Positions 36,077 through 63,595 of a stretch of 64,000 nucleotides of DNA are shown here, in pieces. The notes below the pieces were generated by a model. It did not search any database and was not told the DNA's origin. It worked only from the letters and a program-made list of their open reading frames with translations. Made by a program: the position numbers and the translations under genes. This DNA is from Halichondria panicea (taxonomy: Eukaryota; Porifera; Demospongiae; Suberitida; Halichondriidae), in contig NW_026986607.1 of the NCBI RefSeq assembly GCF_963675165.1, positions 1-64,000 of the forward strand, written 5' to 3'. Every line of letters starts with the position of its first letter. Positions within the stretch are counted from its first letter, which is position 1.

Positions 36077-37000
36077 CTAAGAACTTATAGAGAAGAAATC
36101 CACAGTTTGGATTTTAATCTTATTTACTATCTGTCCTCCGGCTACAATAACCTCTCCACTAGGAAGTACTGAGCATGTGCAGCAGTATCGTACAGTAGGC
36201 AGGTCTCCTACTTTCAACCACCTCCTGGTGTCAGGCTGGTAGAGGTGGATCGATGAACTTGGGTTGACTCTGTCATTCGCTCCACCAACGGCTAATAGTG
36301 ACCTCCCAATACTGAGAGGAGCTGACAACCCGAGTGGTACTTCTTGTAAGGTCTGCCAGAGAGTGGGTGTGTCCAGGTTGGAAAGGGCCTTTGTAATGAT
36401 GAGTTCATTGAGGTCGACGTGGTGCACTGTCTTGGTTGGCCCAGTGTGATCGTACCCTCCCATTAGGTAGAGGGTGTTTCCTATGAGAGTTGATTTCAGT
36501 TCTGATCGTGAGTTAGGTAGTGACTGAGCAATGTACCATCTTCTTGATGCCACGTCCAACACCTCCACAGAGGAGATACGACCATCACCATCACGCCCAC
36601 CAGCTACAATTATGTGGTTGTTGAAGGAGACAGCTGTTGAGGATTGACGAGCAATGTTCATTGGTGGGTACGGGTGAGTCCATTCCCCTGACTCGAGCAC
36701 TGAAAGTTGATTGCTGGGTGTGTTGTTTCTTGGATCACGTCCTCCCACTAGCACTAGTCGATTAGCGAGTGATGTCATACCAAACCACTTGGCAGTGTAC
36801 TCTGGTAGTTTGGTCCATTGATCTTGCTCGAGCTTCATCACTGTACACACGTTACAATCATCGCCTGCACTGCCTCCACCAACATACGCCGTGTCACCGA
36901 TAACAACACTCTGCACTGTGTAGCCCATCTTGATCGGCATGTCTTTTCCTCTTCTCCATTTCAGAGTGAGTGGAGGTCTCAACTCTCTTGGAGGGGGATC
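36077..37000 (-). CDS. gene D exon: six-blade Kelch propeller
   Basis: 307 residues starting DPPPRELRPPLTLKWRRG and ending with a stop at 36077. Glycine-pair blades: YVGGG, LVGGR, VAGGR, LMGGY, AVGGA, VAGGQ, each followed by the usual Trp/Arg positions (RRWYIAQSLP, RRWLKVGDLP). This is a partner-binding beta-propeller. It differs from the gene A Kelch by few residues, including an inserted IT after NELI, and the shared 3' flank with A is also closer than that with C. Confidence 0.8.
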   Translation of the reverse strand, partial: DPPPRELRPPLTLKWRRGKDMPIKMGYTVQSVVIGDTAYVGGGSAGDDCNVCTVMKLEQDQWTKLPEYTAKWFGMTSLANRLVLVGGRDPRNNTPSNQLSVLESGEWTHPYPPMNIARQSSTAVSFNNHIIVAGGRDGDGRISSVEVLDVASRRWYIAQSLPNSRSELKSTLIGNTLYLMGGYDHTGPTKTVHHVDLNELIITKALSNLDTPTLWQTLQEVPLGLSAPLSIGRSLLAVGGANDRVNPSSSIHLYQPDTRRWLKVGDLPTVRYCCTCSVLPSGEVIVAGGQIVNKIKIQTVDFFSISS

Positions 37001-40000
37001 CTGAATAATGAATGAGCGTAATTAGGATAGTGTCTACTAACAAGCGAGTGTTACTTGTAGCAATAATTGTATGCACACTAAATCACTTTTTTGAATAATC
37101 GTATGGAGGGTAATGTCGTGGGGCAAAATATTCGTGGTTTTCTAGTTGAAGGTCTGACCACGAATATTTTACCCACGAATAAAGCGACCTTGCCTACCCT
37201 TCCCAGCAGTACAAGCAGCATGCAACCACGAAATGTCTCAAAATATTACCCACGAAACGTCTCAAAATGGCTGAACCACGAATATTTTGCCCCCTAAAAA
37301 TTACCCGCTATACTGAAGCTTAAGAGGTGAAGACCACCAGCCCACTAGAATGTACAAAACTATAACATCAAAGCTTCTACTATAGCTCTGCAATAATATA
37401 ATGGTGCATTGCACCTCACCTGTCTCTGTTCCTGTCTCTGTTGAATGATGGCGTCTCTCTTGACCAGCTCAGCATCTTTGTGCTCCATCTGTTCCCTGTG
37501 TGCCTGTACAGGGGAACGTTGGTGGAACTCATAGGAGAATGTAATAATTGTAGCAGTAGACAATTATGCTACAGAACTACAGAACAAAATTAATCTTTAC
37601 GCTAAAAAAATTATGTAACAATGAAACAGCACCCTAAGGAACAGTACTGTTGTTTGTGGCTGTAATCAAGAATCTCATTCACACACTACATGTACGCACC
37701 TTCTCGACTGGTAGAGTGTCCCTCTTTGTTGCCTCCACTGAGTCCGAGTCTCTTGTCAGTGAAACATCTAAAAGTAAGAATTAAACGTAAAAAACAAAAT
37801 CGACAAATTTTTCTGAAGTGTAAAACACATAATTATCATGCACTAGGTACCGTCAGGAGCACATTAAGAGGAGTATGCAACTCCCACGCACATGCATTCC
37901 ATCACTAACACTTGTAGTTGTGTAAACTATTAGCCATGAATAAAATTAAATGTGGGCTGGAGGTACAAACCACACGTGTGTGTGTGCCGATATCTAATAA
38001 CCACTACACCTACGCACCCACTTAAGATGTGGTCTGATAGTGACGTGGTATGACATGCTCCTACCGTAACCTGGTTTACACTACAACTGCTACAGTTGGA
38101 TACTCCTCTTAATGTACTCCTGGTACCGTATAGCGCGAAATTTTAGAGGCACTTATATTAATTTTCGTGGAATGGCCTCTAAAAGCATTTCGTTGCACAA
38201 TGTTCGCGGAATGACTGCTTACCGGAAGCCAAGCCTTTAAATCTTTGCACGTTATAGCAGATAATTCTAATTAAAGAATAATTTTCGTTGACTTAATTTT
38301 TGTGTAGGATTGCTAACCCACGAAATCCGCGCTATACAGTATCTAATAGACTCACAGATGTCCCTGGCAGATGGTCTCCTCGTCATGTCTTCTTGCAAAC
38401 AGCTGTCGATAAGCATCCTCAACCTGTGTGTGTGAGGGATCTGGGCAACATGGAATGATCGATCCTTGGCTGATTTGATCGTCTCTAACTTGCAAACAAT
38501 CTGCGTCAAAATCACCCCAAAAGAAAACACATCCAGGCTATTATCGTAATTCTCCTCTTCCAATCGATATGCCTCGGGAGGTAGATACCCTCTACGCTGA
38601 CCAATGGCTGTGAGGGTGGAGCTGAGCTTGGAGGGATCGTATAGTCGCGACATACCAAAGTCAGAAATCTTTGCAACAGGCACTGGCAGTGTCAGCTTCA
38701 GCAAGACGTTATCGCCACAGAGGTCACGGTGGATAATCAGCTTGCTGTGAATGTAGGCCAGACCACAAGCCATGTCTTTGGAGAGGCTAATTTCACATTC
38801 GCTAGTGAGGGACTCTTCATCAAGGCCAGAGAAATAGGATCTCAGATTGCAATCCATCAGCTCAACAACGAGGATTGTACCACCTGATTTGGGGTGCTTA
38901 GTAATCGACAAAAACTGAACAACGTTTGGGTGCTGGAACGACTTGAGAAAATCACTCTCACGATCTATTGCATCGCTAGCATCTTCACTTTTGGTGGCGG
39001 AAATATTTGTCTGCATCTCCATAGCAACCTGATGTAATAGTTTGATAGCACAAGGATCGCCTCTGTAGCTGCCTTTGAAGACTGCTCCAAATGCACCACT
39101 ACCGAGTGGCTCGTCCAGGAAAATGGTCAAATCATCATTGATCTTCTGGTGATTTTGGTCAACTGTAGGGTGTGGGGAGAGTGAGTGGGTGAGGCAGTGA
39201 ATTAACAGTGATCATGGAATTATAGGAAAGATTGCTAACAAACATTATATAATATGAATTCCAGCTCAATTAATTGGTACTTATACGTACCCTCTGACTT
39301 CATATCAGTAGACTGTAGATGATCTTTCTCGATGGTCCTGGCTATGTAGTTGAAGCCCACAATAGGACTAGACAATGCCCCCATCACATCTTCCCAGCTT
39401 CTCTCCCCACCCGTTAGCCATTCTGACAGTCCCTCACGATAGCAGTCATCAGGATTGTCACGCCATTTCGTACCTACATTGTTGATAGTAGCCGGGGATA
39501 CGTCAAGAACAAGCAAAATGTTTCGCCACTTAACTCGAGCATCAAACGTGACTAGGTACACTTTCTTAAGATCTTCTATGGTGAGATAGTCAGCCACAGA
39601 ATGTTGTTGCCTACTTGTTTGAGCATCTGTTGTCTTCAGGACGACTTCATTTAATCCACTCTCATACAAGACAGTAACAAGTTTATCTCGAGTAGCATCT
39701 TGCCCATCTCTTCTCTTCCACTCGTTGAAAAACCGATAAATCTGCTCTTTGAGGTCTCGTTCATTGGCATATTCAATTGATTGAATATCAATTTCCGTAA
39801 AACCAAGACTTCTGGCTAGGACCATCCAGTCTCGTCCAATGTGGTCAGAGACTTCACTGATGAGGGCATCCACTGACTCTACAGCATAGTCAGCATCAGG
39901 GGGCTCCAAGATTGATGGGTCTATTGCAATGGGATTCATGGTTGAGGAGGAAAGTGCATATCTCTCAAGTTCTTGAACAATTTTATCATGTCCTCGATGC

Positions 40001-43000
40001 TCCTCACTGGTCTTAAACAAGCAATCGTAGAGTAGGGCAAAACCATTTTTACCTCCATTTCTTTTTGTTAGATTGAGAAGATTAGATATTTTAGTTGAAT
40101 TATCAAGATTCGGCGATTGTACAGAATCGACGTCAGCCCGATGTACCAGACGATATTTGAGCAAGTATGGAAAGAGTGTGGATATGCTAACAAAGAGTGT
40201 GAGGTTAGGGAGACACTCTTTAAAGACATCTTCAGTCATGGAATACCGTTCAATCAGGGAGTCATCAATCAGGGAGTCATCAATCAGGGAGTCATCTGAG
40301 GATAAAAGAAAATAGTGATTATAGCTGTATGAAGTAGAAATGAGAAACATGATCTAGTATGAACGGCCCTATAATTATACTGTACTTTTAGAGCCTCTGC
40401 ATAAAGTTAAAATTATACCTGATTGTTTCAGATTCGAAATGACTTGTTGAACCTCCTCCCAGCTTGGGTTGTGATGAATGTGGAACCATTTTCTGATCAC
40501 CTCCATTAGTGCGGCATCCGTGTCTTGGCGGCACTGTACTGTTATGGTTTCCAGCGCATCACTCTCCAAGTTGAAGAGCATTCCCACTTTGTACCACGAA
40601 CTAGACCATGGAATGAGTTCAGCAAACACGTTGTGAACGGTAACTGCGTCAGCACCTATGTAATTATACAACCCAAAATAGTGATCAAGTTTTAATAATT
40701 AATTTTATACTTACTATCATGTATCTTGGTAAACCAGATGTCTTGAGTAGAAAAAAGTGCAAGCTTTTCATTTGTAGCAGAACATCTCCAGTGACCCTCT
40801 GTGCTAGGAACGATCATGTGTGTGTTGTCAACCTGACCACATGTGCAGTGAAACCCCACAACAGGAAGAGCTTGACCAGTAATGTGAAACGCTTCTGCGG
40901 CTTTGTTTAAACCAGTAACAATTGCTGTTCTGATAAATGGTAGAAACTCATAATCTTGCATCGAATTTGAATTGATATAAACAGTTAGTTCAGCATCTTC
41001 CTTTCTATACACATTTATGAGAGCATTGACTCCGGGTAGAATGAATTGCACAAAACTTTTGAATAGATCTCGACGAACATCAATTTTCCATGGCCATGGG
41101 TGACCATTGTACTGTGAGCACAAGTAGCACATGATGTATTCAAAACAACCATGGGCTAATAAACACTGGATCACAAGTGGAGCAACTTTGGTATCTTTCA
41201 AACCGGAAACAAAGCTGAAAGTTTCAACACTGACTTCTTCCCTCAGTAAGCATGGCATCAAGAATAACGAATTTTTCATTTCAATTAACAGATGTAAATC
41301 TTTAAAGAGGGATATTGCTTCTTTACATGTGAACAATCCTTCAGCATACATTACTTCACAAACTTCAAATGCAGAGAAGGGAATAATAGCTCCTCGATTA
41401 TGTTGTAGGTCAAAAAGGTTTATCTTTGCAATCAATTGGATCAATACGGTCGAATCCTTAAATATCACATTTGGAAGAACATTGCCAAAGTAAAGAATCA
41501 CACCAGTTATGTGCAGGCTAAGTAAGGCAATTTCAAGATCAGTTTCTGACATTCTGAATTCAGCAGCAATAGTCAATACTTCTTGCTTGCTAATAAAGTT
41601 CCGATTGTATTGTTGCATAACTTTCTTGATAGCGTGACCAAGCATGTGCCAGAATAAAGAGACTTGCTTCAGTTCACTCAAATCCAATGATGATACTAGC
41701 TGTCGTTCGATGTTTTCTATCTCCCTCAATGATTTGCCTACTTCAAATACTTCTTGTTTTCCATTTTTATCAGCAATTAATTTGGCTTGCTCATTATCCC
41801 TAAAGAGAATTTCACTATTTTTCTCAATCGACTCAACTTCTGCATGTGTTTCAACGACCATCAGTTTTGTTGCTAGCATACTGATGTCTTTTATTAGTTG
41901 CTTATTAGTAAAAGATACATCTGCTTCAATTTCAGTTTCGGGAACTAAAATTTTCTGAAGGATTATTTTTCCTTCGAGATCTTGGCTCAAACTCATACAG
42001 TTTATGCCTATGGCGATGCCTTTAAGGAAAATTGGTAGTACATTCAACAACCAAACATCAGAGCAGCATACGCAATTAATAATGTTCAAATTATCAAAAT
42101 CTTTTGTAAGCGATCGATCGCGATTTACCATTAGTTGTAAAATATTCTCAGGAGAGACACATTTTAATAGACTCTCTTTAGGTATTGGCTCATAGATTAG
42201 AATCTGATTAGAAGTGAGATGCTGTGGGGAGTTTCCAGCAGGTATCGATCTTGGTACTTCAACTTCTTTACCAACAGATTGAGCAGACCTTTCTTGCTTA
42301 TTTCGATCACTTGCAGAGTTTTCACTTGATGTCTCTTTGGGTCTTTGCTGTAGAAAATGTTCATCTGGCTCGGTTTGGCCAAGCACTATATTGGGTTGTT
42401 GGATGGAATGTTCATCTGACTTGTCATTTTTAGCTCCCTTTGGAGTCTGTACAGCTGCATTACAAGCAAACACCATATCCGAATCATCATCGTGTAAAGG
42501 TTTAATCTTTTCATCACTGACGGTATAGTAACTAAATTCAAAGCTGGGATCCAATGAGTGTGGTGATTCAAAAGGAGTAAAGTTCTTATCCATAATCAAA
42601 CGCTTGCAGGTATGGACATCTGATCCTGGCAGTCCAGTAAAAAGAATTGTTGTGAATCGCAGACCAAACTTCTTTCCTTTCATCGCAGCCTCAAATCTAG
42701 CCTCAGCATCTGCAACAATAAATTATTATTGGCTGTATAATTATATAGTAACACCATTATAATTTACCTTTTAGAGTAGCTATCTTTGGATGATGTTCAT
42801 CACTCAACCATATTTTGTGGGCAGCAGTGAGCTCCATTTGTTTGCCAGTATGTTCACCACATGTTACATGGTTATCAGTTGCAAATGGCAAATAATTGAG
42901 AAAGTGGATGCTAGATAAATGTTCGGAGCAAGAACATACAAATGTTAAGCGCATCGATTTCGTATTGATAACTCTTTGCAGCTGCACATTAAGAGTGGAT

Positions 43001-46000
43001 ACAATTTGAAGACATAGGTCAATATGGGGAATATTGTCATCAGTAAGTCCATCAAAGTGAGCTCGAACACAATCAATAAACTCAGTGAACACAAGCCGAA
43101 ACTGGTTATTAATTTCAAACGACACCATGTTCTTACAATTTATAAAATCGGGTGACAGTTTCCATATTATTCTGCCTTTTTTGATTCCAGAAAGTACGGT
43201 CATTAGTCTTGGAAAAAAACCTGGTGGTATAAACTTAGAGATTGGAACCAAAAACAGTGGTGCCACTTGTAAATCGGCTGGTAATACAGAACAGGCTGAA
43301 ATTCTCGTATGAAATACATGCTGATGATTAGGACAAATGGGAAGCACTTGGAGCATAGACGGAATAAAGTAGCTTTCCAGTAAAGGCATATGCATTGCTA
43401 AATGGTGTTCATCAAAGAAGTTTAGAATCCATGATAGCGGGAGACCAGTCTTACTATCCTCTAGAAGCTTTTTACCAACTTGGACATTCAGAATACCCTG
43501 TGTTTGAAGACTCTTCCATTGCTTAGGATGATCCTTATACACTTGGGGATCAAGAATAGTTCCAAGAATGGAAAGTAGGTTCTTAGGCTCAACAAAAACA
43601 TATTCTTGGAGCATTTTCTTGTTGTGATACCATATGAAGATACCAAGTTCATGAAAATAGCAAAGAGCTGCTCTAAGGTCTGTTTTACACTTTTTAGCTA
43701 TTTCACTAGCTTTTTCAAATGTCACAATTCCTGTGCAAGGCTGTTGTAAACATGATTCTCGTTCTAGATCAATCTTGAAAGCAATCCATTTGCTAGGTAT
43801 TTTTGCTTTGGCACTCTTTGTGCAGAAAACTATTTGCTCTCGCAAAGTTTTCATTCCAGGATCATCATACTTTGCTCCTGATTGTGTGTTGTCTATCTCA
43901 AACATAAAAGAGTTGGGTGTAGAAGTTGAAGGCAAGATTACCTTTTCATGAAAGTTCGTTCCTTGAGAGTTCAGATTGAGTTTTAACTGAAGGAGCATTT
44001 GATCCAAGTCTTGCTTGTCATCTACTTTAATCTGATCTTTGAAAGTACCGATAAAGGCTATTTTAGGAAAAACCGTTGCACTAGCTAATTCGAATACTCT
44101 CTTCTTTAATATATCTGGAAGGTTGCTGAGATGCACATCCAGTGAATTAGAGTCTAAGAAGGAAAGACTTCGATACAGGTAATCAGTATATGTGTAAGGA
44201 GACTCTCTCTCTATTTCAAGTGGGCAGGTAGGTCTAATGGAAGCGTTAGAATTTTCCAACAAATCACAAAGTCGAACAACAATACCATAAATGGATCTAA
44301 CTTTGGCGAAGCAAGGAAGAAGATCTTGAAACATTGGTTGCCCTCCTGTGTCCCAGAGAGTGAGATAAATATTATCTGGGTCGCTCTTATAAACACTGTC
44401 GTACTTCTTAAATACCACGGCGCTTTTCTTGGAGTCTATTGTACTTTCAAATGTTTCTTGGTAAAGCAGCTCCGGCTCCATTATGATTGTGCTTTTCTCC
44501 TTATCATTAAAGGGAATGTTCTGAAGATGCTTTCTGATGGACGTCTTTCCAACTCCCGTGTGGCCAATGAGAAGCATGTGCAAATGTGGTACCTCCAAAT
44601 ATTCAGAATCTGCTAGTTCAAAAGTAGCTTTCATTTCCAGGCTGGTTTTCTCCAACTCTAAATCGTATGAATAATTATAATGACATAGATAATTGCTGTT
44701 ACTTATAATAATACTTACTTACCTAGTATGTGTTCTAGTTCTTTGGCAACATCTGCTGTACTTGAAGAGCCTCGTTTATTGTCTGGGAACCACCTGTGCT
44801 TAAAAACGTTGAAAAGAATGTGGTTGTCAGGTAGTTTAGAATCGCTGTTGCACTGTTTACGATGAACCATCAAAAGAAGACTATCGTTGAGCCAATTCAA
44901 GCTGGGTAACTCTGGTTGGGTGTTGAGTTCCACTTTATGGAAGTAAGATTGCTCATATATAGGTAAAAACATAGCTTTTGTGTCATTAGTACTATATTTG
45001 TGTACAAACAGAGATTCTGTAGTCAATTGAAGGGTAATATTTGGTGAGAACCCAAGAACACTAATAGCAGCATTCAATAACAATGAAAGCTGTTGTATTT
45101 CAGATAAGGCCTCAGATAAAAAGCAATACTCTTTTAATGGTTGCTGAACTTCAAACAGGACAACAGGGTGTGAATAGAGTTTAGTATCAAAATGAATGCA
45201 TTTTGCTGGCATTACATTGGGCTTATTCGTTTGCACATCCTCGATGTATTTGGTGAATTTCAATTTATCACCTTCACCATTGTATACTAATGCCATACAT
45301 TGCTGTCCATTGTGAAGAGCTTTCCAGAGCGAGCATGGAGACACGTCTAGGTCCATTTCCTTTTGTAGTTCAAGTTTAGTTTCACAAAAAGTGTTGAGAA
45401 TTTGATTGTAGGTTACTTCCACTTCAGATCCAGGATCTACAATAAAATCAACTATCATACTGAATAATCTAAAAAATAATTTACTTGCCTGTAAAAGTGT
45501 ATTCAATGTCCGTGGTATCAATATCTGCCTCTTCTCCATCAATTGTCTCATTGTCTGCTTCACTACATGTACTGCTGATCTCACCCATCCCACTGCTATC
45601 GAGACTAGACACAGAACCTGCATAAATTAACAAATGACATGCATAGCTTACAAGTACCGTATATACTAGTATATACTTATACCACACTTACGTCACCACT
45701 CATTGGTCAACAGCTGTAGGATATTATAGCCCAGGCATGCACAGTTTTCAAGTTTTCAAGAAAGTAAGCAAAGACGGTTCTAAAACTCAAAGCAACGGCA
45801 GAAACACGGAAGCTGCTCTCCAACAAGATGGCTAAGCTTCCATGGCACGGTTAAGATACATTTTATCCAAGAAATCTTGCAACTCCAGTAAGGGACGTCG
45901 AATGGTCAACGCTTAGCATCTGTATAGGAGTTGACGTGTTGCTCAACTAGCTCTTTGATGGCTTGAAGAAGATCAATTGACTGCTTCAGCATATGTGCCA

Positions 46001-47485
46001 ACTCCCGTAATAGTTCACAAAAGCACTATATGTTTTGTACCTCTAGCTAGCTAGCCACTATAGATCTATTGGCAGGCTGAAAGATTAATGATTTTCATTT
46101 CAATACTTCAGCATTAGCATAGATCTATGGCATTAGATATCAGCCACTACACTTAATTGCAAGACTCCACGAGTAGAACGACGAAGATGATACAAAGCAG
46201 AGATTTGACTGAGATTTGTGATGCTCATCAATGGATGTTGTGTTACTCTAGCTAGTGGACTTAGCTGTATACATATACTGAGCGATTTTTTTACAAGATT
46301 ATCATGTGTGACTTAACTATTTATAGCACAGCAACTCAGGAGCAATAATACTAAACCAAACTAGAGGCATGCTGAGTATTTTGACGTTTTACTATAGATA
46401 TTATATGTACTGTGGACTAGGATCACAGCAAAGAAGCCTGGAGTCTCAGAATGACAAGCACCCTCATGACCCTACGCTGCCTTATAATTAAATTTTGACT
46501 CGATATTGAGACATAAAACGAGTGTGTCCATCAGAAAAGTCACGGAGAGCGCACAAAGTTGCGAAAATCGACGTAAAGAGTAATTTTTTTCCTCGTGTTT
46601 TGGTCTGCTCCCCCGCACAGTGTATGGGGGGATCTTAAGGAGGGTGAAAGCTAAAACCCTATATATATAATTATTATATTATGTATAGTTTCATAATACT
46701 CTTAATTGTGTTGTGTATACCTTGTACAGTGACATCATTCTTTGGACGCTTTGACAGAGTTTCAACTTCTTCATCTGATGGTAATGATCTTCTGCGCTGG
46801 CCTGAGGCTAGAGGATCTGTATGTAGTGTGTAGGAACAGATACAGTGCTAAATTAGAGCACTGGTGCTAACCCTCGGCTGTTGACATAAATAATTAAAAA
46901 GGAGTATTCAATTAAGATATATTTTCATCAGTCTTGGTCTGTTGATTGTTGAACACCTACACAATACCTATACCATACTCTACCAAGATTATGACCACCC
47001 TAATTGCATGCTACAAAGCAGTTACATGCATGCAGGTGGGATGAGCTTTATCTTCGAAAACATGTAGTTTACGCTCATGACTAATGAGTGCACTCATAAG
47101 TCTTTTCTGTCTGCATGACAAATGCATCACTCCTGTTCTCGAGGCAATTAGCCTATGCAGGAACTTCCACTCAAAAGTGGGGATGGGCATAATTTCGAAC
47201 GTGGGCGTAACCTTGGTAGAGTATACACGTGTACACATGCATGTGTGTGATAAATGCTGATACTAACCTCCATACATCAGCACTAAACCTTGAATGGTCG
47301 GAACACTGTCACCTATCACTGATTCAGAGTCATCCTTTTCAGAAGATATATCTCTGACTTTTTGGCTGTGCAAATCTTCAGGAACAGTTGAGGGTTTTAT
47401 CTCAGTTCTGAAACAGAAGCCACACAATTACACAGTATACTATAATGATTGACTCATTTGAAAAATCAAACACTTACCCTTGCAT
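36077..47485 (-). CDS. gene D core: pseudokinase-RocCOR-RocCOR-Death-CARD-Death-Death-kinase-Kelch giant protein
   Basis: Overview of the linked exons listed next. Hand-traced junctions: 47407-47268, 46816-46721, 45617-45489, 45436-44723, 44657-42768, 42709-40715, 40655-40419, 40295-39291, 39162-38356, 37767-37700, 37503-37420, 37000-36077. Phases agree at every junction. From ATG at 47485 (exon 47485-47478, donor GTAAGT) the total is 8097 nt, exactly 2,699 codons with stop. All junctions from 47268 to 38356 are phase 1. An earlier ATG 4 nt upstream of the chosen one opens a five-codon frame that would overlap the start. Alternatively the 47485 ATG is intronic and exon 47407 joins the 50927-51728 exon, which ends in the matching phase 2. 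By family knowledge this would be a cytosolic GTPase/kinase signalling scaffold of cell-death or immune type. It could also be two genes, and transcript data would decide. Confidence 0.65.
37100..37314. mobile_element. MITE in gene D Kelch intron
   Basis: Inverted arms: GGGTAATGTCGTGGGGCAAA and the complement around GCCCCCTAAAAATTACCC, ending CGCTATACT. Internal CCACGAATATTTT motifs in both orientations. Absent from the same intron of genes B and C, so a younger insertion. Non-coding. Confidence 0.7.
37420..37767 (-). CDS. gene D exons: linker and short coiled coil
   Basis: Exon 37767-37700 encodes YVSLTRDSDSVEATKRDT-type Ser/Thr-rich linker; exon 37503-37420 encodes HREQMEHKDAELVKRDAI and a Gln/Arg-rich end, a short amphipathic helix. 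The coil exon is three codons longer than in genes B and C through an extra RQEQ-type segment. Phase 0 on both sides of the coil exon. Confidence 0.65.
38124..38341. mobile_element. MITE beside kinase exon donor, gene D
   Basis: Orthologous to 30188-30406 of gene C: ends TACCGTATAGCGCG and CGCGCTATACAGTA, 14 bp from the donor. Confidence 0.75.
38356..39162 (-). CDS. gene D exon: TKL-like protein kinase
   Basis: 269 residues in one exon, phase 1 at both ends. It begins VDQNHQKINDDLTIFLDEPL, then GSGAFGAVFKG (glycine loop), CAIKLL (ATP lysine), HRDLCGDNVLL (catalytic Asp and Asn), SDFGMSR (metal site), RGYLPPEAY, DVFSFGV and the RRPSARDI end. All residues needed for catalysis are present. Nearly identical to the gene C kinase. 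The frame stays open past the donor into the MITE for about 30 residues (to FFN-stop), which could serve as an alternative end. Confidence 0.8.
39291..40295 (-). CDS. gene D exon: CARD + Death + Death
   Basis: 335 residues in a single phase 1-1 exon. It opens with a 15-bp coding repeat (DSLID three times), then a CARD-like helical bundle (LFPYLLKYRLVHRADVD, ISNLLNLTKRNGGKNGFALL), a Death domain (ISEVSDHIGRDWMVLARSLG, EQIYRFFNEWKRRDGQDATR) and a second Death domain (YLTIEDLKKVYLVTFDARVK, SEWLTGGERSWEDVMGALSS). The last is close to the Death exons of genes A and C. These folds make homotypic contacts in death and immune signalling platforms. CARD is called from its hydrophobic pattern and is the least certain of the three. 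Confidence 0.65.
40419..40655 (-). CDS. gene D exon: Death-like domain
   Basis: 79 residues, phase 1-1, acceptor TACATAG and donor GTATAA. Pattern: VFAELIPWSSSWYKVGMLFN, then LETITVQCRQDTDAALMEVI, then the Trp-containing PSWEEVQQVISNL end, the usual Death helix 5/6 layout (W-x-x-V/hydrophobic). A separate module between the second Roc-COR and the CARD exon. Confidence 0.6.
40715..42709 (-). CDS. gene D exon: second Roc-COR-like module, GTPase degenerate
   Basis: 665 residues, phase 1-1. The N-terminus has a P-loop-like ILFTGLPGSDVHTCKRLIMD in which the GKT/S of a working Walker A is replaced by DVHT; no DTGGQ-type switch or NKxD/THxD follows. After a low-complexity stretch come COR-type helical and winged-helix segments (INLFDLQHNRGAIIPFSAFE, VMYAEGLFTCKEAISLFKDL). 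The C-terminus FHCTCGQ...HWRC...LFSTQDIWFTKIH mirrors that of the preceding exon (FVCSCSE...HVTC...ELTAAHKIWLS), so the two exons are probably paralogous modules and the second is a pseudo-GTPase. Domain name rests on motif reading only. Confidence 0.55.
42768..44657 (-). CDS. gene D exon: Roc GTPase-COR module
   Basis: 630 residues, phase 1-1. Roc motifs: P-loop LLIGHTGVGKTSIRKHL, switch LTLWDTGGQPMFQDLLPCF, and G4-like IAFIGTFKDQ. COR-type segments follow (SLLSILGTILDPQVYKDHPK, SWILNFFDEHHLAMHMPLLE, YFIPSMLQVLPIC), and the exon ends with a Cys-containing FVCSCSE...HVTCGEH block and KIWLSDEHHPKIA. Roc-COR occurs in LRRK/ROCO proteins and DAPK1, where it works as a GTP-dependent dimerisation module; in DAPK1 it is also followed by a Death domain. 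The active-site motifs look functional. Confidence 0.75.
44723..45436 (-). CDS. gene D exon: probable pseudokinase domain
   Basis: 238 residues, phase 1-1, 5' intron of GC-AG type. The layout resembles a kinase fold: CSLWKALHNGQQCMALVYNG as an N-lobe, a hinge-like HPVVLFEVQQPLKEY, helices LSEIQQLSLLLNAAISVL, and a C-terminal SSSTADVAKELEHILG that matches the last kinase helix. No glycine loop, catalytic HRD or DFG is seen, so if it is a kinase fold it is inactive. The assignment is an inference from pattern only; structure prediction is needed. Confidence 0.45.
45489..47407 (-). CDS. gene D N-terminal disordered exons
   Basis: Three short exons: 47407-47268 (TEIKPSTVPEDLHSQKVRDI onward), 46816-46721 (DPLASGQRRRSLPSDEEVET, ending KRPKNDVTVQ, a possible nuclear-type basic patch) and 45617-45489 (SVSSLDSSGMGEISSTCSEA followed by an Asp/Glu-rich end). 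Acidic and serine-rich, predicted disordered, no domain. Junction phases 2/1, 1/1 and 1/1. Intron 46720-45618 (1.1 kb) and intron 47267-46817 show no coding content. Confidence 0.5.
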
Positions 47486-47566
47486 GCATGGGTTGTTGTC
47501 GTTACATGTACGTGGTGATTTTATTTTAGAAGTACGCAAATGCCACATATGAAACATCGTATATAG

Positions 47567-47741
47567 TGTTGGAAATCTTATTAGTTATTGTGTCACTACG
47601 TATTATGTCATCAGTATTGTAATCACATGATCAGACACATGTTGTGAGAAATGAATGAAAGATGAACAAGAGTCAATATCTGTAGTATAGCGATAATGAG
47701 AACAGTTTGAACAGTTAAGGTTAAGTAAGAGTGAATTCTGA
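47567..47741 (+). repeat. 5' LTR of BEL/Pao element
   Basis: Begins TGTTGGAAATCTTATTAG and ends GTGAATTCTGA. It contains the uninterrupted CTGTAGTATAGCGATAAT site that is split by the mariner-like insertion in the 3' LTR. Confidence 0.75.
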
Positions 47742-47835
47742 TGGTCCTTCGAACCGGATTGGAATCGGAAGTCTACAAACAAGTTTGCGAAGACTACTCA
47801 ACGGATCACTCTACTGTCTGCTCACATAGTGTGCA

Positions 47836-48895
47836 ATGACCGACGCAGAAGTCTCAACAAGGAAGAAAAGAATACGCACTGGCCACAAGGCGTCGGCCAC
47901 GCGCACTCTGGGTCAACTGGCTGTTGCTCTTGGAGAAACACCCCCAAACCCAGATCGACTGTCTCTACTTAAGCAGCCCCTCGAACAAAAGTTGGAAACA
48001 CTAAAGGGATTAGATTATTGAACTTACCCCAGAGGAAACCCTTGATGATGAAAATCAACAAGCCGACGAGTATCGGGAGCGAATATATGAAGCCTTGACA
48101 CGAATCAAAAGAGCTGAACCTCCTGCTACAGCACCTGGGATTGCCCCACCTACGACCACTCGAGGTTCTGAACGAGGGGCGAGAGTTCAACTGCCCAAAC
48201 TAACACTTCCACACTTTAATGGTGACCTGATGAAATGGCCAACCTTTTGGGACTCATATGAGTCCGCTATTCACAATAACGATGGGCTAACAGACACGGA
48301 CAAGTTCAATTATCTGAGGTCCCTGGTGGAACGAACTGCGTATGATGCCATTTCCGGACTCACCGTGTCGACCGTTAACTATCAAGAAGCGATTGAGATC
48401 CTGCAGAAAAGGTTTGGCAATAAACAACTGATAATCTCGAAGCATATGGAGACACTGTTGACGGTTGGAGGCTGTGACATCAGACCAGAACCTGAAGGAT
48501 CTGCGACGACTCTACGACAGCACCGAATCACGCATGAGAAGTTTGAAGTCCCTAGGAGTGGAATCAGAATCGTATGGGGCTATGCTCTCCTCTGTGCTGC
48601 TAACCAAGCTACCTACCGATCTGCGTCTCATTGTCAGCCGTAAGGTCACATCCACAGATTTGAACATGGATAGCCTACTTAAAACCTTCGAAGAAGAACT
48701 GGTCGCTAGAGAGAGAGCTTCCAACTCCAACTCCTCCCATACACCACCACGTCGAAACCAAGATCGAGGCCGACAAACTTCCTCTACCCTATTGTCAAGG
48801 GTGCAGGAACCATACAAGAGCTGGCGTAAGTTGTAGCTACTGCCAGCAATCCCACTCGTCAACCGACTGCAAGACTGTAATCAGCCTCACTTTTT
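47836..48895 (+). pseudogene. BEL/Pao gag, frameshifted
   Basis: Starts MTDAEVSTRKKRIRTGHKAS. The frame is lost by one base near 48018 (after LKGLDY), resumes as ELTPEETLDDE, and shifts again near 48464 (before VTSDQNLKDLRRLYDS). The Cys/His knuckle YCQGC...CSYCQQSHSSTDC precedes the deletion junction. Structural protein of the retroelement; inactive. Confidence 0.75.
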
Positions 48896-48899
48896 TCCA

Positions 48900-49710
48900 G
48901 GACGGTACTGTCAAGGAACACTTAGCGGAACTAAGCTGCGAATGGGTGTTCAACGTTGAACGCGCACCATGGTCGGGTGGTGTCTTCGAGAGAATGGTCA
49001 AATCGACAAAACGTTGCTTACGCAAAGTGATATGGAGAGCCCACCTCTCGCATGATGAACTCCTCACTGCAGTCACGGAAATCGAAGCCGTTATCATATC
49101 TCGGCCAACGATTTGGAGGAAGAACTCGCTCCTTCTCATTTGATTGTGGGACGTCGAATTCTAAACTTACCCGACCATATTGGATATCTATGTGATTCTA
49201 CCGATGATGAAGAGTTCTCAATCAATTCTACACAACTTGCGAAACGCGTTAAGCATCTCAGCAGTATACATTGAATCACTTTTGGAATCGATGGAGAACC
49301 GAGTATTTAGCAGAACTGAGGGTAGCCCATTACCATTCTGTGAAGAAAGTTGCCAATTCTGGAGACCACAACCTGTCCATTGGAGATGTCGTGATCGTAT
49401 ACAACAAACACCTACCCCGTGGACTTTGGAAGCTCGAGAGGATACAGGAACTCATGAAGGGTCAAGACGGACAATTTAGGGGTGCCACAGTCAAGATGGC
49501 CACGAGAGGTCGCCAACAGACTCTGCTGCATCGACCGATCCAACTACTATACCCCTTAGAAGTGAGATGCCCAATGGACCAGAGAAGCCAACTAACGATG
49601 CCGAGGAACCTGACACCGAACAAGAAGCTGACGTGGTCAAGGAAGGTCCTATGGAAACTCGACAAAGAACAACACGTGTTGCAGCCCAACATGTATGAAC
49701 TGGAAGACAA
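48900..49710 (+). pseudogene. BEL/Pao integrase C-terminal remnant
   Basis: Starts at about NVERAPWSGGVFERMVKSTK, the region around the last catalytic Glu, continues through HDELLTAVTEIEAVIISRPT in one frame, then in another frame NHFWNRWRTEYLAELR, GDVVIVYNKHLPRGLWKLER and TLLHRPIQLLYPLE. At least one frame change near 49125. Only the end of pol is retained. Confidence 0.75.
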
Positions 49711-49912
49711 TTGAACTTAAAGGACTGAACTTAAGATTATGTTATCCCGATTGTTGACCATGTTTGGTCAACGGGGGGAGTGTGTTGGAAATCTTATTAG
49801 TTATTGTGTCACTACGTATTATGTCATCAGTATTGTAATCACATGATCAGACACATGTTGTGAGAAATGGATGAAAGATGAACAAGAGTCAATCTAATTG
49901 AATCCTGTAGTA

Positions 49913-50589
49913 CAACCTTTTTCACCTCATTTGAAATACACATTTTAAAAACAAAAAAAGAAATGTACCACTAATTGACCTCAGGTATGTACATATAGTA
50001 ATAGTCAGAGCTGGGCATGTTCACAATTTCAAATTGTTAATGAATGATAGATTGTGCAAGACCTAGATCTAAGCCTTCTTTAGAGTGATGTGCAAGACCT
50101 AGATCTAAGCCTTCTTTAGAGTGAATCCTATAGACGTTTAGGGCATAATGTGGCAGCACTTGTAGATCTACCAGCAATCTGAATTTCAGGTAGTCGGCTT
50201 TTCAAATCATCTCAATGACGATTAGTTTATCGTGAGATCATCTAGACAGTACTCCCTTGGGCTGGCTTTATTAGCAGACACATCTCCAGTGTGTTGAAAT
50301 CTATCAACAACCCTCCAAACAGTAGCTTCAGCAACAAACAATCTATCTACTGCTTCCTTAATGGTACAGCAATTGACAAGCCTTTGCCATATACCATTCT
50401 CCACCTCAGATTCTCATGATAGGATTTTGTACGGCCAGGTTCCCCCATTATTACTTGGTCTTGCACAATCAATCATTTATGAAACTGTGAACATGCCCAG
50501 CTCTGACCATTACTATATGTACATACCTGAGGTCAATTAGTGGTACATTTCTTTTTTTGTGTATATTTCAAGTGAGGTGAAAAAGGTTG
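49913..50589. mobile_element. Tc1/mariner-type non-autonomous element inside 3' LTR
   Basis: 677 bp flanked by TA (49911-49912 and 50590-50591) with inverted ends of about 110 bp (CAACCTTTTTCACCTCATTT and its complement, extending to GAGCTGGGCATGTTCAC). The 5' LTR gives the empty site with a single TA. On the minus strand, 50404-50222 encodes a helix-turn-helix remnant (IKEAVDRLFVAEATVWRVVD, RFQHTGDV) as in the N-terminus of IS630/Tc1/mariner transposases. A direct repeat (GTGCAAGACCTAGATCTAAG...) of about 38 bp occurs twice at 50053-50122. Confidence 0.8.
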
Positions 50590-50639
50590 TATAGCGATAA
50601 TAAGAACAGTTTGAACAGAGTGAATTCTGATTATTTACA

Positions 50640-50890
50640 TATAGCAATACATACAGCATTTTCGTGAGGTGCAAAATTTCGCGTTTTTCGAAAGTATATA
50701 GAGCAGTAACACGAAAATTAAAGCCGGGATAAACTCCCATGCACGCACCGGTATTTTACATGCAAAGCTATTGGTGGGTGTGGTTTCCTGACATTGAACC
50801 GCGAATATTAGAACTCACGAACATTTTTGCTGAGGGCTCTGGAGCCAAACAGCAAACATTTGCACCCACGAAAATTTCCCGCTATAATGG
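50640..50890. mobile_element. probable MITE remnant
   Basis: AAATTTCGCG and CGCGAATA/GAAAATTTCCCGCTATA motifs are arranged as a loose inverted pair (AGGTGCAAAATTTCGC near 50668 against GCACCCACGAAAATTTCC near 50870). Non-coding. Confidence 0.4.
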
Positions 50891-50926: not shown

Positions 50927-51728
50927 CTCTCAACAGTTGTAGGTGCATCTTGAAAAATACTGATTCCTGCCTCACAGAGAGAAGCTAGTTGTGAAACCGT
51001 GGGTGGAAATAACTGAGCAAAAGCCTTTGCAGAAAAAAGGAACCTTAGACACAAGCATCCATCCTCGATACTGCATAAGCGAAATGTCCATTCATTCACG
51101 TTAAAGATAGAAGCAATGGTATCTTTGGCTGAGATAACATCACGAAGGGAAGAGTATCCACTTGAAGTTAGTTTCACTGTCAAAATGTTTGTACCGTTCC
51201 TTGATTCAGGTAAGCTGGGAAAGGTGTTGCGGGGAATCTCAAAGGCACTTCTTTTACAATAGTTGTCGAATGCAATTACATAATCCTTCATGATCATTTT
51301 GTCCTTTTTGGAGCCGAATTCCAATACAATACTATTGACAATTTTGTAGTTCAAGAAAGACTTGTACGGCCTAAGGGCAACAAAAATAGAAGGAATTGTA
51401 TCAGCTATTTCCAGTTTTGCGATGTATTCCTTCTCATCCGAAGATGAAATCATATCCAAAACAAAATTTTTGACCACCGCTACATCTTCCTTCGCTACAT
51501 CTTCCTTGAGATTTTTTGCAATAGCAGTGTCGGCTCTAGCAAAGAGCTCGATCATATTCTGAGTATCCTTTCTGAGAGTGGCCTCTAGTACTGATCGATC
51601 TTCTTTAGAGAGTGCTGGTGTGTTGAGGTATGGAAAGAGGGTTTCACCAGTTGCTTTGTGGAAGGAATTTTTTGACAAGTACTGCTCAAGCGTGCATTTC
51701 TGACAATATGGACAGATAAAGCTGGGCC
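50927..51728 (-). CDS. gene E/D exon: unnamed domain, copy 2
   Basis: Exon entered in phase 1 (acceptor CTTTATAG) with a possible phase 2 donor at GAGAG|GTACTA; otherwise it ends YYY-stop at 50914. Starts GPSFICPYCQKCTLEQYLS (Cys-rich), then helices IPSIFVALRPYKSFLNYKIV and FDNYCKRSAFEIPRNTF, and a C-terminal FNVEWTF-like core, here SIFNVNEWTFRLCSIEDG. This block layout recurs in sponge Death-domain proteins as I remember them, but I know no name for it. No poly(A) signal was noticed after the stop, which slightly favours splicing onward to gene D. Confidence 0.55.
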
Positions 51729-54060: not shown

Positions 54061-54759
54061 CTTGTAGAGCCGTGTAGACCTGGATATCATCAATGGTGAT
54101 GGATAGAAAGCCATTATTTGCTAAGAATTCAAGTTCTTTTCCTTGCTTCAACTGTTCCTCTATTGAGCACGCCAGAGAAGGAGGGACGTACAAGATGATG
54201 CTTTTGACACCACCTGCCACAAGAATAAATTCCTGAGATAGGGAAAATCCTTTCGAAAAAAGTTTGCTAGTTGTCTTCACATCATACAAAGTACAGTCTT
54301 CCCATTTTTTGCATACTTTTTTAACGACTATTCGTTTCAACTTAACCATTGATGGCTTTGCAATTAAATACGGCCAATAGTCAACAAAATCGCAAAGTTT
54401 AGTTTTAATAAGAAATGTTTTCCTTTCACTCTCATACTCGGCTAGCTTCCTCAGCAAAGGATTGTCTGCTTCAGTGAACATAACTCGAACCACGTGTTGG
54501 AAGAGCTCATAGTTCAAGAAATCCCAGAATTGATTTAACTTGCCCCATATCTCTGCGAGCATGTTCGCTTTCTCGAAGCATTCTTCAACATAATTTCCTG
54601 TAATGTGCTTTAACGATACACTCATGCTCGTTACAATAGCATAGAAATTGTCTACACTAATGCCAGATTTCTTAATTCGTTGATACCCTTCGTTAGTTAG
54701 CAAATTAAAGATCTCCTCCAGGTGTTTAACTTGGTCATCCAGGCTTGAGTAATCTGAGC
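54061..54759 (-). CDS. gene E/D exon: unnamed domain, copy 1
   Basis: 233 residues, phase 1-1 (acceptor CTGCAG, donor GTACAA). Starts SDYSSLDDQVKHLEEIFN and includes FYAIVTSMSVSLKHITGNYV, WGKLNQFWDFLNYELFQHVV and FLSITIDDIQVYTALQ. The W/FxxLNYELxxHVV pattern corresponds to FVALRPYKSFLNYKIV in the next exon, so the two exons are distant repeats of one fold. No name known. Confidence 0.6.
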
Positions 54760-54942: not shown

Positions 54943-55215
54943 CAATTCTCCACTCCTCAATCTTCTCCGCCACATCCTTACGGTCCACGGTTGGAGATCG
55001 GAGACAGTCACACACATCCCTCCATGAGAGGGGGCCACCAGAGTGCAGACGTTTAATCAGCATTTCACGGAGACAGGTGTCAAGATTTTGGCTGTTTATT
55101 TCGTGGATCGCACTCAAGTCGTTACCATCAATGTTCAGGTTCAATCCAATATTGAACCATTTAGTACGAGCAGGATAGAGTTGTTTATGCAGTGGTGAAA
55201 GGTCATCACATATAT
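54943..55215 (-). CDS. gene E/D exon: N-terminal Death domain
   Basis: 91 residues, phase 1-1 (acceptor CACACAG, donor GTACCC). Sequence DDLSPLHKQLYPARTKWFNI, then LNLNIDGNDLSAIHEINSQN, LDTCLREMLIKRLHSGGP and SWRDVCDCLRSPTV, a typical Death fold. An ATG at 55258 could start translation in frame through a His/Thr-rich leader (MRRACTHIHTHTHT), but that leader overlaps a CA-repeat acceptor tract, so splicing from an upstream exon is preferred. Confidence 0.65.
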
Positions 55216-57880: not shown

Positions 57881-58139
57881 CAGTGGCGTAGCCAGGATCA
57901 GTTTGGGAAGGGCAGGGCTCAAATCAGTTGAGCAGGGCATCACTTTTGCTCAGCAGTCAGCATGCGTATTAGATGGCCCTGCCCACATTTCCATTCAATG
58001 ACATCCGGCATTCTAGTAACTATATACACATGCAGTACAGTGCAGAATACATGGACAGATCGCAGCTGAGTAGGAGTTGATAAAGCACAAAAGGGGGGGG
58101 CTCTAGCCCCTCAGCCCCCCCCCTCTGCCTACGCCACTG
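57881..58139. mobile_element. hAT-like element 2 (259 bp, inverted relative to element 1)
   Basis: Termini CAGTGGCGTAGCCAGG and CTCTGCCTACGCCACTG; TTAGG flanks both ends. The sequence is the inverted, shorter relative of element 1, without the nested MITE. Confidence 0.7.
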
Positions 58140-58602: not shown

Positions 58603-58760
58603 AGAACACACCTAGCCAAGATTAAGTGTTTTAATCTGCGTGCCGAGGATGGCCTCGAGGTTAACGTGGTGCTCGAGGCGCAGCCGAGTGCATTACGTAA
58701 CCGAGAGGCCATCCGAGTGCACCAGCATTAAAACACGTGACTTGGCTAGGTGTGTTCTAA
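58603..58760. mobile_element. fold-back element
   Basis: Inverted arms GAACACACCTAGCCAAG and CTTGGCTAGGTGTGTTC, then GTGTTTTAAT and ATTAAAACAC, and GGCCTCGAGGTT/CCGAGAGGCC inside. 158 bp, could form a near-complete hairpin. Non-coding. Confidence 0.75.
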
Positions 58761-58799
58761 AGGATTTAGTGCTGTCACGTGAGCTCTAGCCTCGTGGCA

Positions 58800-59690: not shown

Positions 59691-59698
59691 AATCCTTA

Positions 59699-60045
59699 AA
59701 GCTACTCTGACCTGTTGTAAGCCTGTGTGGCCTCAGAAGTTTCCATCTGAGCTGGTCTGACCTGCCGTAGTGCTGTATTATCTAAAAGTGCCTGTGCAAC
59801 TTCAAAAGTCTCCATCTGAGCTGCTCTGACCTGTCCTAGTGACTGGCCTCGATCTCTGTTTTGTCCTGTTGAGCTAGCAGGTTTATTATCACAAAAACAC
59901 AAGACTTGGAAGTGAAACATGGCAAGTAAGCTGCTGTGACCTCCTGCAGGCGTGCCTGTGTGATCTTAGGCTCAGAAGGTCCCCATTTGAGCTGCTCTGA
60001 CCTGCTGTAGGCGTGCTTGTAGCCTCAAGCGTCTCTGTGTACGTG
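59699..60045. repeat. degenerate ~65-bp tandem repeat
   Basis: Units containing CATCTGAGCTGCTCTGACCTG recur four to five times with spacers of varying length. On the minus strand they read as QVRAAQMETFE-type residues, but frames change between units, so it is not a supported gene. Confidence 0.6.
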
Positions 60046-60049
60046 TCTT

Positions 60050-62060: not shown

Positions 62061-62068
62061 TCTTGTTG

Positions 62069-62319
62069 CCTAAGAAATTCCGCATCATTTGGCATGTTGT
62101 ATGGCTTCACTCGATACAGTTTGGTTATTGCATCTAATTAGTGTTCTTTGAACTCAGACATTAGGATTGTTTATAATAACTCAAACAACAAATAATTATT
62201 GCCCAAGTAACACTACATCCTACAACATATCTCGTGATATGAACTAAAACATAGCTTCAAAAGAGTTCAAAAGATGCAGAATTTCTTAGGCAACACGATG
62301 ATATACAATTTTAGTCTTC
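62069..62319. mobile_element. inverted-repeat element
   Basis: CATCTTGTTGCCTAAGAAAT and ATTTCTTAGGCAACACGATG face each other across about 200 bp. Non-coding. Confidence 0.6.
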
Positions 62320-62694
62320 AATGTTAATGGTTAGACAGTTACAGTTTAACTAACAGCATGCAGCCACTTCAAAAGTTGAGAATTTCTAATCAACTCAATC
62401 TCAAAAGCCATCTTTTTTTACAAAACCCAACATTTTTTCTAAGATGTTATCATACCATTCCTCAAATACATACACCAAGTTTCGTGCAATTCTGAAGACG
62501 TCACGTTTTAAATTTCGTTGAATTTATATGGAATGACCCATAGTTATCTCTTCTCTCAAGCTAGTTCGTCTGAGGCTCAACCGATTTTGGTGCAATTATA
62601 AAGCTATTGGTGGTATCCCAGGAGCGCGAGTCAGTTTTATACATGCCGTAAAACATAAGGCCACGTCATGTTTTAATTGACCATGCATGGCATT

Positions 62695-62850
62695 CCTCTC
62701 AGCCCAGAGGAGGTACGACAGGCGCGGTGCAGCTCTAGCAATTAGCCTTTGACTAATTACCCGCCCACGTTGTGTTGTTATTGCTAGTACAAATGTAATC
62801 AGAGGCTAATTGCTTTAGCTGTGCACAGCGCCTGCCGGACCTCCTCCGAC
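62695..62850. mobile_element. short TIR element
   Basis: AGAGGAGGTACGACAGGCGC on the left against GCGCCTGCCGGACCTCCTCC on the right, with GCAATTAGCC/GGCTAATTGC inside. Non-coding. Confidence 0.65.
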
Positions 62851-63002
62851 AGTATGTTTACCCGAAGACCTCTCTACCTCCAAATAAATAATTGTTGACC
62901 TCTAAAAGTAGCGACAGTTGCGTTGACAATGTCGTGTCCTAAATGGAGGCAAATTTAGCCACACTCTATAGCCGGCCCAATAGAAAATACACGTTTTTAA
63001 GC

Positions 63003-63408
63003 ACTGATCAGAGTAGTCTGGGGGCCAGACCTTTTCTCAGAGGGGGAGGAGGAAGAGAGAAAGAGGTCTGGAGACTCTTGCAGCACTTCCGTGTGCTCTT
63101 GGAATGTCAATAGGGAGGAGACTGTGATATTGGAGGTTATAAAGAAGGAGTAGATGTAGCAATACTCTCATTTCATTGGCTGCATCTAAATTCCATTGGC
63201 TGTAATCCAAATTCCACAGAGGCAATACTCACATTTCATTGGGTTAAAAATCACATGACATTTATAGGATATGCATTTCATTGGCTCTGGCCACATTCTG
63301 CTAGAGCACACGGAAATGCTGCAAGAGTCTCCAGACTTAATCCTAGCTCTCTTGATTTTGCCCCCGAGCTATTAGGTCTGGCTCCCAGACTATGATCAGA
63401 GCTACATG
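63003..63408. mobile_element. MITE with CCAGACTMTGATCAGAG-type termini
   Basis: Left arm 63005-63110 (CTGATCAGAGTAGTCTGGGG, then GGTCTGGAGACTCTTGCAGC) is inverted at 63295-63410. The centre has repeated TTTCATTGGCT/TTCCATTGGCT units. Non-coding. It lies 130 bp downstream of the candidate first exon. Confidence 0.75.
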
Positions 63409-63540
63409 CTACTCTCTATATGCGACATTCAATACAATTTTTCAACCTCCAAAATAACCAACCTCTTGCCATTTAATTATGCCTCGAGGCGTAGTTAAAT
63501 TAGGTATTGCACTGCAGTATTTATAGCTTGCCCCACTCAC

Positions 63541-63595
63541 CATCTAGTGGCGATGCCTCTCCACTGTCGACACCGTGTCCACCACCAGTAGCCAT
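63541..63595 (-). CDS. candidate first coding exon of the giant gene
   Basis: ATG at 63595 opens MATGGGHGVDSGEASPLD and one extra base before a consensus donor (GATG|GTGAGT). Phase 1 exit fits the phase 1 entry of the Death exon at 55215, giving ...SPLDDICDDLS. With it the whole 17-exon model closes in frame (9978 nt). The 8.3-kb intron would be the largest of the gene and is filled with repeats. It could belong to another gene. Confidence 0.4.

Follow-up and report, generated by a model that had tools for sequence, protein, structure and literature searches.

The window analysed here is the first 64 kb (64,000 bases) of contig C28 (NW_026986607.1; 94,770 bases) of the sponge Halichondria panicea, whose genome assembly holds 131,455,214 bases in 39 contigs. 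Its reverse strand carries a candidate gene in which a Roc-COR-CARD-Death (RCD) gene is fused, within an exon and in frame, to a Death-kinase-Kelch (DKK) gene of the array on the same contig, and the sequence makes it likely that recombination has turned the two into one gene. The gene model was built from stop-to-stop open reading frames (ORFs), splice motifs located by eye, comparison with paralogues and a copy of the downstream gene on contig C1.

The exon chain and its support

From the ATG at 63595 to the stop at 36077, the independently built chain joins 16 exons into 9,897 nt, encoding 3,298 amino acids (aa) plus the stop, without an internal stop codon; 14 introns are of the GT-AG type and one, following exon 7, is GC-AG. 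A previous sequence-only reading of this DNA had proposed a single open frame between the same two ends, and this frame is borne out by our chain, in which all joins are open. Its 17 exons and 9,978 nt did not recur, the difference of 81 nt being a multiple of three. The joins 63541/55215, 50927/47407 and 39291/39162, which had been flagged as doubtful, fall on identical bases in our chain.

The chain is probably more than a product of chance, and the support for it comes from paralogues. In P0001, an NCBI-predicted paralogue, 7 of the 15 junctions (7/8 to 11/12, 13/14 and 15/16) are read across alike, the segment at 14/15 begins further upstream, 6/7 has only its downstream side in common, and 1/2 to 5/6 are without a counterpart; junction 12/13 differs because of the fusion. 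Between 39.6 and 63.7 kb, much of the window can be aligned with the first RCD copy on C1 (C1a), in introns as well as exons, and the 5′ exons are therefore part of the gene that was duplicated. C1a has a counterpart of exon 4 but none of exon 3, while the reverse holds for the second C1 copy (C1b); the indels within these two exons are all multiples of three. The pairwise ratio of nonsynonymous to synonymous substitution (Ka/Ks) is 0.19-0.37 for the kinase and 0.29-0.48 for exons 8-9. The linker exons 5-7 are the weakest part of the model.

The fusion junction and the mosaic gene

At 39,595, the native stop of the RCD gene (GTGTACTTATAA in C1a) and the start codon of the DKK gene (ATGTCTGAC) are both lost, and the sequence reads H S V A D Y L in frame through exon 12. 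All seven other copies of the DKK Death exon that we examined have an ATG at the corresponding site. Among the RCD copies, C1a and that on contig C6 end in HSVYL-stop, C1b runs slightly beyond HSVY, and the copy on contig C10 stops earlier. In C28 1-84 kb, nothing matches the 1.0 kb after the C1a stop, and of the sequence further out only scattered repeat pieces do; likewise, 36-64 kb contains no match to the 1 kb preceding the DKK start at 31662. Because the upstream stop, the downstream start and the adjoining flanks are gone, one protein would span Roc-COR to Kelch. The junction sequence is single-copy in the genome, with up to two mismatches allowed, and a few shared bases at most were needed for the join.

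Different parts of the gene have different nearest relatives. Exons 8-9 are nearest to the C1 copies, with a synonymous divergence (Ks) of 0.06-0.16 as compared with 0.26-0.33 to C6, and exons 10-12 are nearest to C6 (Ks of 0-0.04 as compared with 0.24-0.54 to C1, where the value for exon 12 may be inflated by Death-to-Death matches); the switch lies near 42.75 kb. Further downstream, the gene at C6:585k shares 97% identity with the DKK Death and 97-98% with the kinase, the fusion gene on C6 shares 97-99% with the kinase, and C6:528k shares 98.8-100% with the Kelch. The sequence-only claim of one protein from Roc-COR to Kelch is well supported by the loss of stop and start; by these relationships, the predicted gene is a mosaic fusion rather than a settled ancient protein. 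Two simpler derivations were rejected. C28 is not taken as an allele of the C6 fusion, since its upstream half is C1-like and exons 8-9 differ from C6 by the Ks given above; and a simple deletion in the window gene would not yield the C6-type gene, because the latter retains the native stop that the window lacks.

Table 1. Features of the fused gene and the adjoining unfused gene on contig C28.
Feature	Position	Strand	Remarks
Exon 1	63541..63595	-	candidate start ATG (MATGGGHGVDSGEASPLD); ATG and donor conserved in C1a
Exon 2, Death-like domain	54943..55215	-	32% identity over 85 aa to Death of P0012, E 6e-6
Exon 3, unnamed domain	54061..54759	-	compared with C1b; Ka/Ks 0.34
Exon 4, unnamed module	50927..51728	-	29% over 235 aa to N-terminus of Kelch protein P0055, E 6e-26
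Exon 5, low-complexity linker	47289..47407	-	donor one among several possible, phase identical
Exon 6, low-complexity linker	46721..46816	-	no aligned C1a counterpart
Exon 7, acidic linker	45489..45617	-	GC-AG donor; counterpart in P0001
Exon 8, probable pseudokinase	44723..45436	-	no HRD/DFG seen
Exon 9, Roc GTPase and COR	42768..44657	-	P-loop GHTGVGKTS
Exon 10, degenerate second Roc-COR	40715..42709	-	GLPGSD replaces GKT/S P-loop; weak COR-A only
Exon 11, Death-like domain	40419..40655	-	PF00531 E 0.12
Exon 12, CARD, Death, fusion point, Death of downstream gene	39291..40295	-	from Pfam, paralogues and model
Fusion junction	39580..39606	-	Roc-COR gene end (CATTCTGTG) joined to Death exon of kinase-Kelch gene (GCTGACTATCTC)
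Internal donor, last exon base 39615	39613..39616	-	in-frame splice to kinase exon would skip fifth Death, cf. NCBI model of C6 sister
Exon 13, protein kinase	38356..39162	-	AIK, HRD, DFG intact; PF00069 E 7e-37
Exon 14, linker	37700..37767	-	P0001 and P0012 read identically
Exon 15, coil-like segment	37420..37503	-	begins further upstream in P0001
Exon 16, six-bladed Kelch propeller	36077..37000	-	hypervariable b-c loops; stop at 36077; PF01344 E 6.2e-27; six GG motifs
Unfused DKK gene	28344..31662	-	same contig; NCBI-predicted P0012 (702 aa, starts MSDYL)

Domains of the predicted protein

The domain order given by the sequence-only reading is largely right. Roc, Death, kinase and Kelch lie above the Pfam cut-offs in the window exons, while COR-A, CARD and pseudokinase are weaker there; in the hidden Markov model searches of the exon products proposed with that reading, exons 2, 4, 8 and 11 gave no Pfam match above cut-off, with none at all for exon 2 or exon 8 by itself. 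In exon 9, Roc matches PF08477 (E 2.2e-10, 41.2 bits with a cut-off of 27) and COR matches PF16095 (COR-A) with 29.4 bits, below the cut-off of 35.3; in P0001, the latter reaches 50 bits in two stretches. Exon 12 matches PF00531 (Death) with E 1.2e-17. The window's own copy gives no CARD match, whereas four of six paralogues do (best E 9.7e-4). The predicted model of exon 12 (predicted local distance difference test, pLDDT, of 68) has 18 helices in three six-helix bundles; among its PDB matches, RIPK1, ankyrin G and FADD rank highest with their Death folds and CARDs follow, none below E 0.001 and the matched bundle unspecified.

Exon 8 is a probable pseudokinase, its fold matches being suggestive. 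Its homologue in the distant paralogue P0010 matches PF07714 with 17.3 bits (E 0.003), below cut-off, and in its own low-confidence model (pLDDT 41), strands and helices follow each other as in a kinase N-lobe. The best 50 of 1,630 PDB matches of this model (E up to 10) are all kinases or pseudokinases, ILK first, none below E 0.001. Neither a CARD nor a kinase came up when the profiles of CARD and pseudokinase were searched against solved structures. The end of exon 4 possibly adopts a TRADD-N-like fold (PF20694 at E 0.16), and the exon matches the corresponding P0001 module weakly or not at all. The kinase, with CAIK, HRD and DFG at residues 2709, 2816 and 2839 of the fused product, is labelled RIP/IRAK-like (TKL) by likeness. 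The module of exon 4 also occurs in P0055, so that the window gene has Kelch-family modules at both ends.

The RCD family and its sister fusions

Besides the window's Roc exon, the genome holds six close copies (on C6, C12, C10 and C4, and two on C1) with 83-95% identity, and four further copies on C10 with 52-55%. The proteins of C6, C12 and the distant C10 copies begin with different N-terminal modules. The RCD genes have thus exchanged both of their ends, mostly between phase-1 introns. The C4 copy lacks Death and has a stop within the Roc exon, and in the 2.4-3.7 kb examined downstream of C1a, C1b, C10 and C4, there is no kinase or Kelch of this family. The ENA protein P0007 is 100% identical to C1a, which therefore exists in another assembly too.

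A Kelch tail is found in three of the seven close RCD copies, the window's included, with three different joins. The C6 sister has kept its RCD stop and is joined at a shared TATAAT within the intron that precedes the kinase exon. NCBI models it as one protein of 3,215 aa (LOC135337585, the P0001 above) by use of a donor upstream of the stop (...TTDAQK/IDQNHQK); the same donor is present in the window in identical phase. In the C12 sister, the join lies earlier in exon 12 and leads to another Death, which the NCBI model (LOC135345186, P0003; 3,213 aa) continues into another Kelch without a kinase. The C6 and C28 fusions are nearest to each other in the 3′ half of the upstream gene and have similar kinase exons, with joins about ten bases apart on the upstream side, and they may share a common beginning.

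P0001, an uncharacterized H. panicea protein, resembles the window gene in its pseudokinase exon, Roc-COR, degenerate Roc-COR, Death-like domain, CARD, Death, kinase, coil and Kelch, but lacks the fifth Death, retains the native stop in the exon, where it is spliced out, and has another N-terminus with a 2A-like DVETNPGP. P0003 has the same Roc-COR chassis and a Death-Kelch tail, but no kinase match, another type of Kelch and another join point in exon 12. The architecture is thus already in the databases as NCBI predictions and not quite new there, contrary to the sequence-only statement that no described protein with such a combination was known.

The motif IIAGD[VI]ETNPGP, which we take to be 2A-like, lies near the N-terminus of P0001, P0002, P0003, P0010 and P0011 (at residues 93-98, or 294 in P0002), with a locus on C6 noted at about 716.6 kb. 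Six-frame translations of the window and of C28 64-84 kb do not contain it.

DKK arrays and neighbouring features

DKK arrays occur on C1 (mainly 15.5-17.4 Mb), on C6 (mainly 0.4-0.8 Mb) and on C28, and matches in the genome number at least 129 for Kelch (at least 79% identity) and at least 143 for the kinase (E up to 0.001, identity down to 34%). Within the window, 20342-26640 (reverse strand) holds a P0030-like gene of a second Kelch class, with a different kinase at 26640-26518 and 26441-25866, a long coil at about 24233-23514 and the Kelch exon at 21286-20342. At 12821-16431 (reverse strand), no kinase ORF of at least 150 aa separates the Death exon (16431-16117) from the Kelch exon (13759-12821), and this is possibly a kinase-less array member. 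Short relics of Death and kinase exons lie on the opposite, forward strand between array members, at 26781-26924, 34331-34426 and 34809-34907. In P0004, encoded on C4, a DKK-type Death-kinase and GTPase-like domains, which match Roc and AAA weakly, stand in the opposite order. The proteins P0073-P0131, mostly from ENA contigs, are mostly kinase-Kelch proteins of about 600-1,000 aa with about 25-35% identity, and their precomputed Pfam rows are without Death.

Traces of mobile elements are present in the window as well. The intron between exons 4 and 5 contains ORFs at 48014-49714 (forward strand) that are presumably of retroelement origin, and C1a has no counterpart of 47563-50658. Two further forward-strand ORFs, at 4415-4888 and 6213-6740, resemble fragments of mobile elements, presumably parts of an integrase and of a protease/PHD-like region.

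The hypervariable Kelch family

The Kelch set consisted of 46 NCBI-named H. panicea rows among P0012-P0063, taken from the best 120 of 1,019 matches; the Kelch-bearing H. panicea proteins P0064, P0067 and P0070 and all ENA rows were left out. The rows are representatives at 90% identity, some of them isoforms of one locus, so that 46 rows are not 46 independent genes. By N-terminus, they comprise 17 Death-kinase proteins, 21 with another kinase and coil, 7 with the exon-4 module and 1 fragment; for these class calls, one to two rows per class were scanned with Pfam, and the exon-4-module N-terminus had no match.

Across the 46 rows, 28 Kelch positions reach an entropy of at least 1.5 bits. Nineteen of them fall within the b-c loops, which come after the six GG motifs and make up 48 of the 306 positions; the P value of 4e-11 is nominal because the loop was defined after the pattern had been seen. 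Eight of the other nine lie directly before strand a, at least one per blade. When the three classes were analysed separately, 19, 20 and 19 of the 28 most variable sites were located in loops; the pre-strand sites, which had been chosen from the pooled result, accounted for a further 8, 6 and 8. The ratio of nonsynonymous to synonymous differences (pN/pS) among 12 distinct genomic copies, pooled over dependent pairs, is 2.04 for the b-c loops as against 0.47 for the remainder of the exon; the pooled values for comparison are 0.33 for Death (8 copies) and 0.30 for the kinase (7 copies). Pairwise Ka/Ks values for the complete Kelch domain have a median of 0.77 and are above 1 in only 6% of 62 pairs. 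A comparison of the entropy of Death and kinase with that of Kelch (1.06 and 1.17 vs 0.50 bits) was dropped, as the 46 proteins mix three N-terminal classes.

Many copies, variation on one face (as placed by Kelch geometry) and a pN/pS above 1 on that face were all found, and the pattern is probably that of a recognition repertoire in which the loops bind targets. Keap1 is among the PDB relatives of the Kelch domain, and the variable spots resemble what we take to be the Keap1 contacts with Nrf2. Among the best 8-20 titles per search of the open-licence literature, none described this hypervariable Kelch family or a sponge fusion of Roc-COR, Kelch and Death.

Weighing the explanations

Several observations weigh against reading the window gene as one functional sensor protein. 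The pairwise Ka/Ks is 0.95 and 0.63 for exon 2, 0.68 for exon 4, 0.67 for exon 10 against C6, and 0.83 and 1.08 for Kelch, and exon 12 differs from C6 by four nonsynonymous and no synonymous changes; constraint is therefore unproven for parts of the gene. The DKK Death is weak by sequence, with Pfam matches in two of six copies (best E 0.04) and FADD at E 0.042. Two full-length searches of the protein database, each scoring 7,999 candidates, did not return the window's own fused product, whereas P0012 from the same contig was returned; the product may lie inside the P0001 cluster, and likewise no long NCBI protein came up for the copies on C1 and at C10:1.2-Mb. C28 is an unplaced contig, the Kelch loops were delimited with the pattern in view and their pN/pS draws on dependent pairs, and the function is deduced solely from domain content for a gene known from sequence alone.

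Some of these points would also fit a misassembled join, or one that marks a rare allele or a decaying gene, the contig being unplaced and rich in repeats. C28 is short (94.8 kb), the gene is a mosaic of C1-like and C6-like exons with a Kelch up to identical to one on C6, and its long product was missing from the searches. Yet an overlap of near-identical reads could hardly produce a join that shares so few bases, all 16 exons are open with splice sites, and comparable fusions lie on the long contigs C6 and C12, which leaves this explanation quite improbable. Two transcripts, with the Roc-COR gene ending in or after exon 12 and kinase-Kelch expressed from an internal promoter like other array members, appear very improbable. 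An unfused DKK gene adjoins and is predicted as a separate protein, and the RCD sisters C1a, C1b and C10 terminate after Death, but at the window's join the RCD stop and the DKK ATG are both gone, as are the flanking sequences of the sister copies; the frame is open through it, and NCBI models the C6 sister as a single protein. The Kelch variation, finally, might reflect relaxed constraint or concerted evolution in the array, with the fused protein as ordinary signalling machinery. Although the patchwork identity suggests gene conversion and the Ka/Ks of the whole Kelch is below 1 in nearly all pairs, relaxation would be domain-wide, and the variation lies mainly at the same two spots per blade, with the loop excess in pN/pS, and does so in the three N-terminal classes separately. 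An explanation without recognition must account for this concentration on one face, and we consider it improbable.

If the window gene yields one protein, it would most likely be a sensor-switch-kinase, a function suggested by its domains. The hypervariable Kelch face of this cytoplasmic sensor would bind a target, and Roc-COR would act as a GTP-dependent dimer switch, as in the Roco family, where Roc-COR switches with GTP and dimerises. The Death/CARD chain would recruit partners or polymerise into an assembly, and the kinase would give the output, as in RIP or IRAK kinases. Death-Death contacts may have brought the two halves together before they were fused; the fusion would make this contact permanent and equip a Roco switch with a variable sensor.

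Sponges tell self from non-self and host dense microbiomes, and to our knowledge they lack adaptive immunity. A wider reading, which we regard as quite possible but advance tentatively, is a combinatorial system of self/non-self or microbe recognition in H. panicea, in which one hypervariable Kelch cassette sits on several chassis (Death-kinase, another kinase with coil, the exon-4-module N-terminus and Roc-COR giants) and recombination in tandem arrays continually produces new receptors, the window gene being a recent fusion. With at least 129 Kelch copies that vary mainly on one face, the sponge has a concrete candidate repertoire, and the hypervariable family behind the fusion would be a larger story than the fusion. 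The joining of Kelch to a Roc-COR switch would also indicate that an LRRK-like architecture of GTPase, kinase and propeller can arise anew from separate genes.

Comparison with known systems

With Roc present and COR directly after it, the predicted protein is a Roco protein by its Roc-COR, outside the LRRK, DAPK and NLR types. Pfam scans of exons 2-4, 8-13 and 16 (exons 1, 5-7, 14 and 15 being outside the scans) found no leucine-rich repeat (LRR) as expected of LRRK proteins, and no NACHT or NB-ARC. The kinase and a propeller lie C-terminal of Roc-COR as in LRRK-type proteins, but the propeller is a Kelch rather than WD40, so that the protein would work like this type and does not belong to it. 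The DAPK1 type has an N-terminal kinase, ankyrin, Roc-COR and a C-terminal Death, whereas the window's kinase is C-terminal and the scanned exons hold no ankyrin.

Roco proteins with kinase and propellers are known, and their flanks include WD40 and Kelch propellers according to a review (PMC6320773). LRRK2 and other Roco proteins share Roc-COR followed by a kinase, but the window gene has Death and CARD domains between COR and kinase and appears to have been built separately from sponge genes. In sea anemones, the predicted immunome gene Novel Gene 3 combines kinase, Death and Roc/COR; it differs by its TIR and SH3 domains, and the excerpt names no Kelch or CARD (PMC5094078). The TRADD-N expansion of the sponge Amphimedon, an example of the Death-rich expansions known from sponges, comprises one to three Death-like domains in many one-off architectures, some with a kinase, but is centred on TRADD-N, and the excerpted source mentions no hypervariable Kelch family (PMC8195603). 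Exon shuffling of LRRs is described for the ROCO genes of brown algae (PMC11378527), and a study of the sponge response to microbial signals reports a decrease of Kelch-motif genes of unspecified kind (PMC6208332). The closest working parallel is that of the Podospora genes het-d and het-e, in which the interaction surface of a WD40 propeller is under diversifying selection and repeats are exchanged among members (PMC1805685); these are fungal WD40 and not Kelch proteins, the excerpt names no Roc-COR, and the likeness is one of working principle, with no claim of homology.

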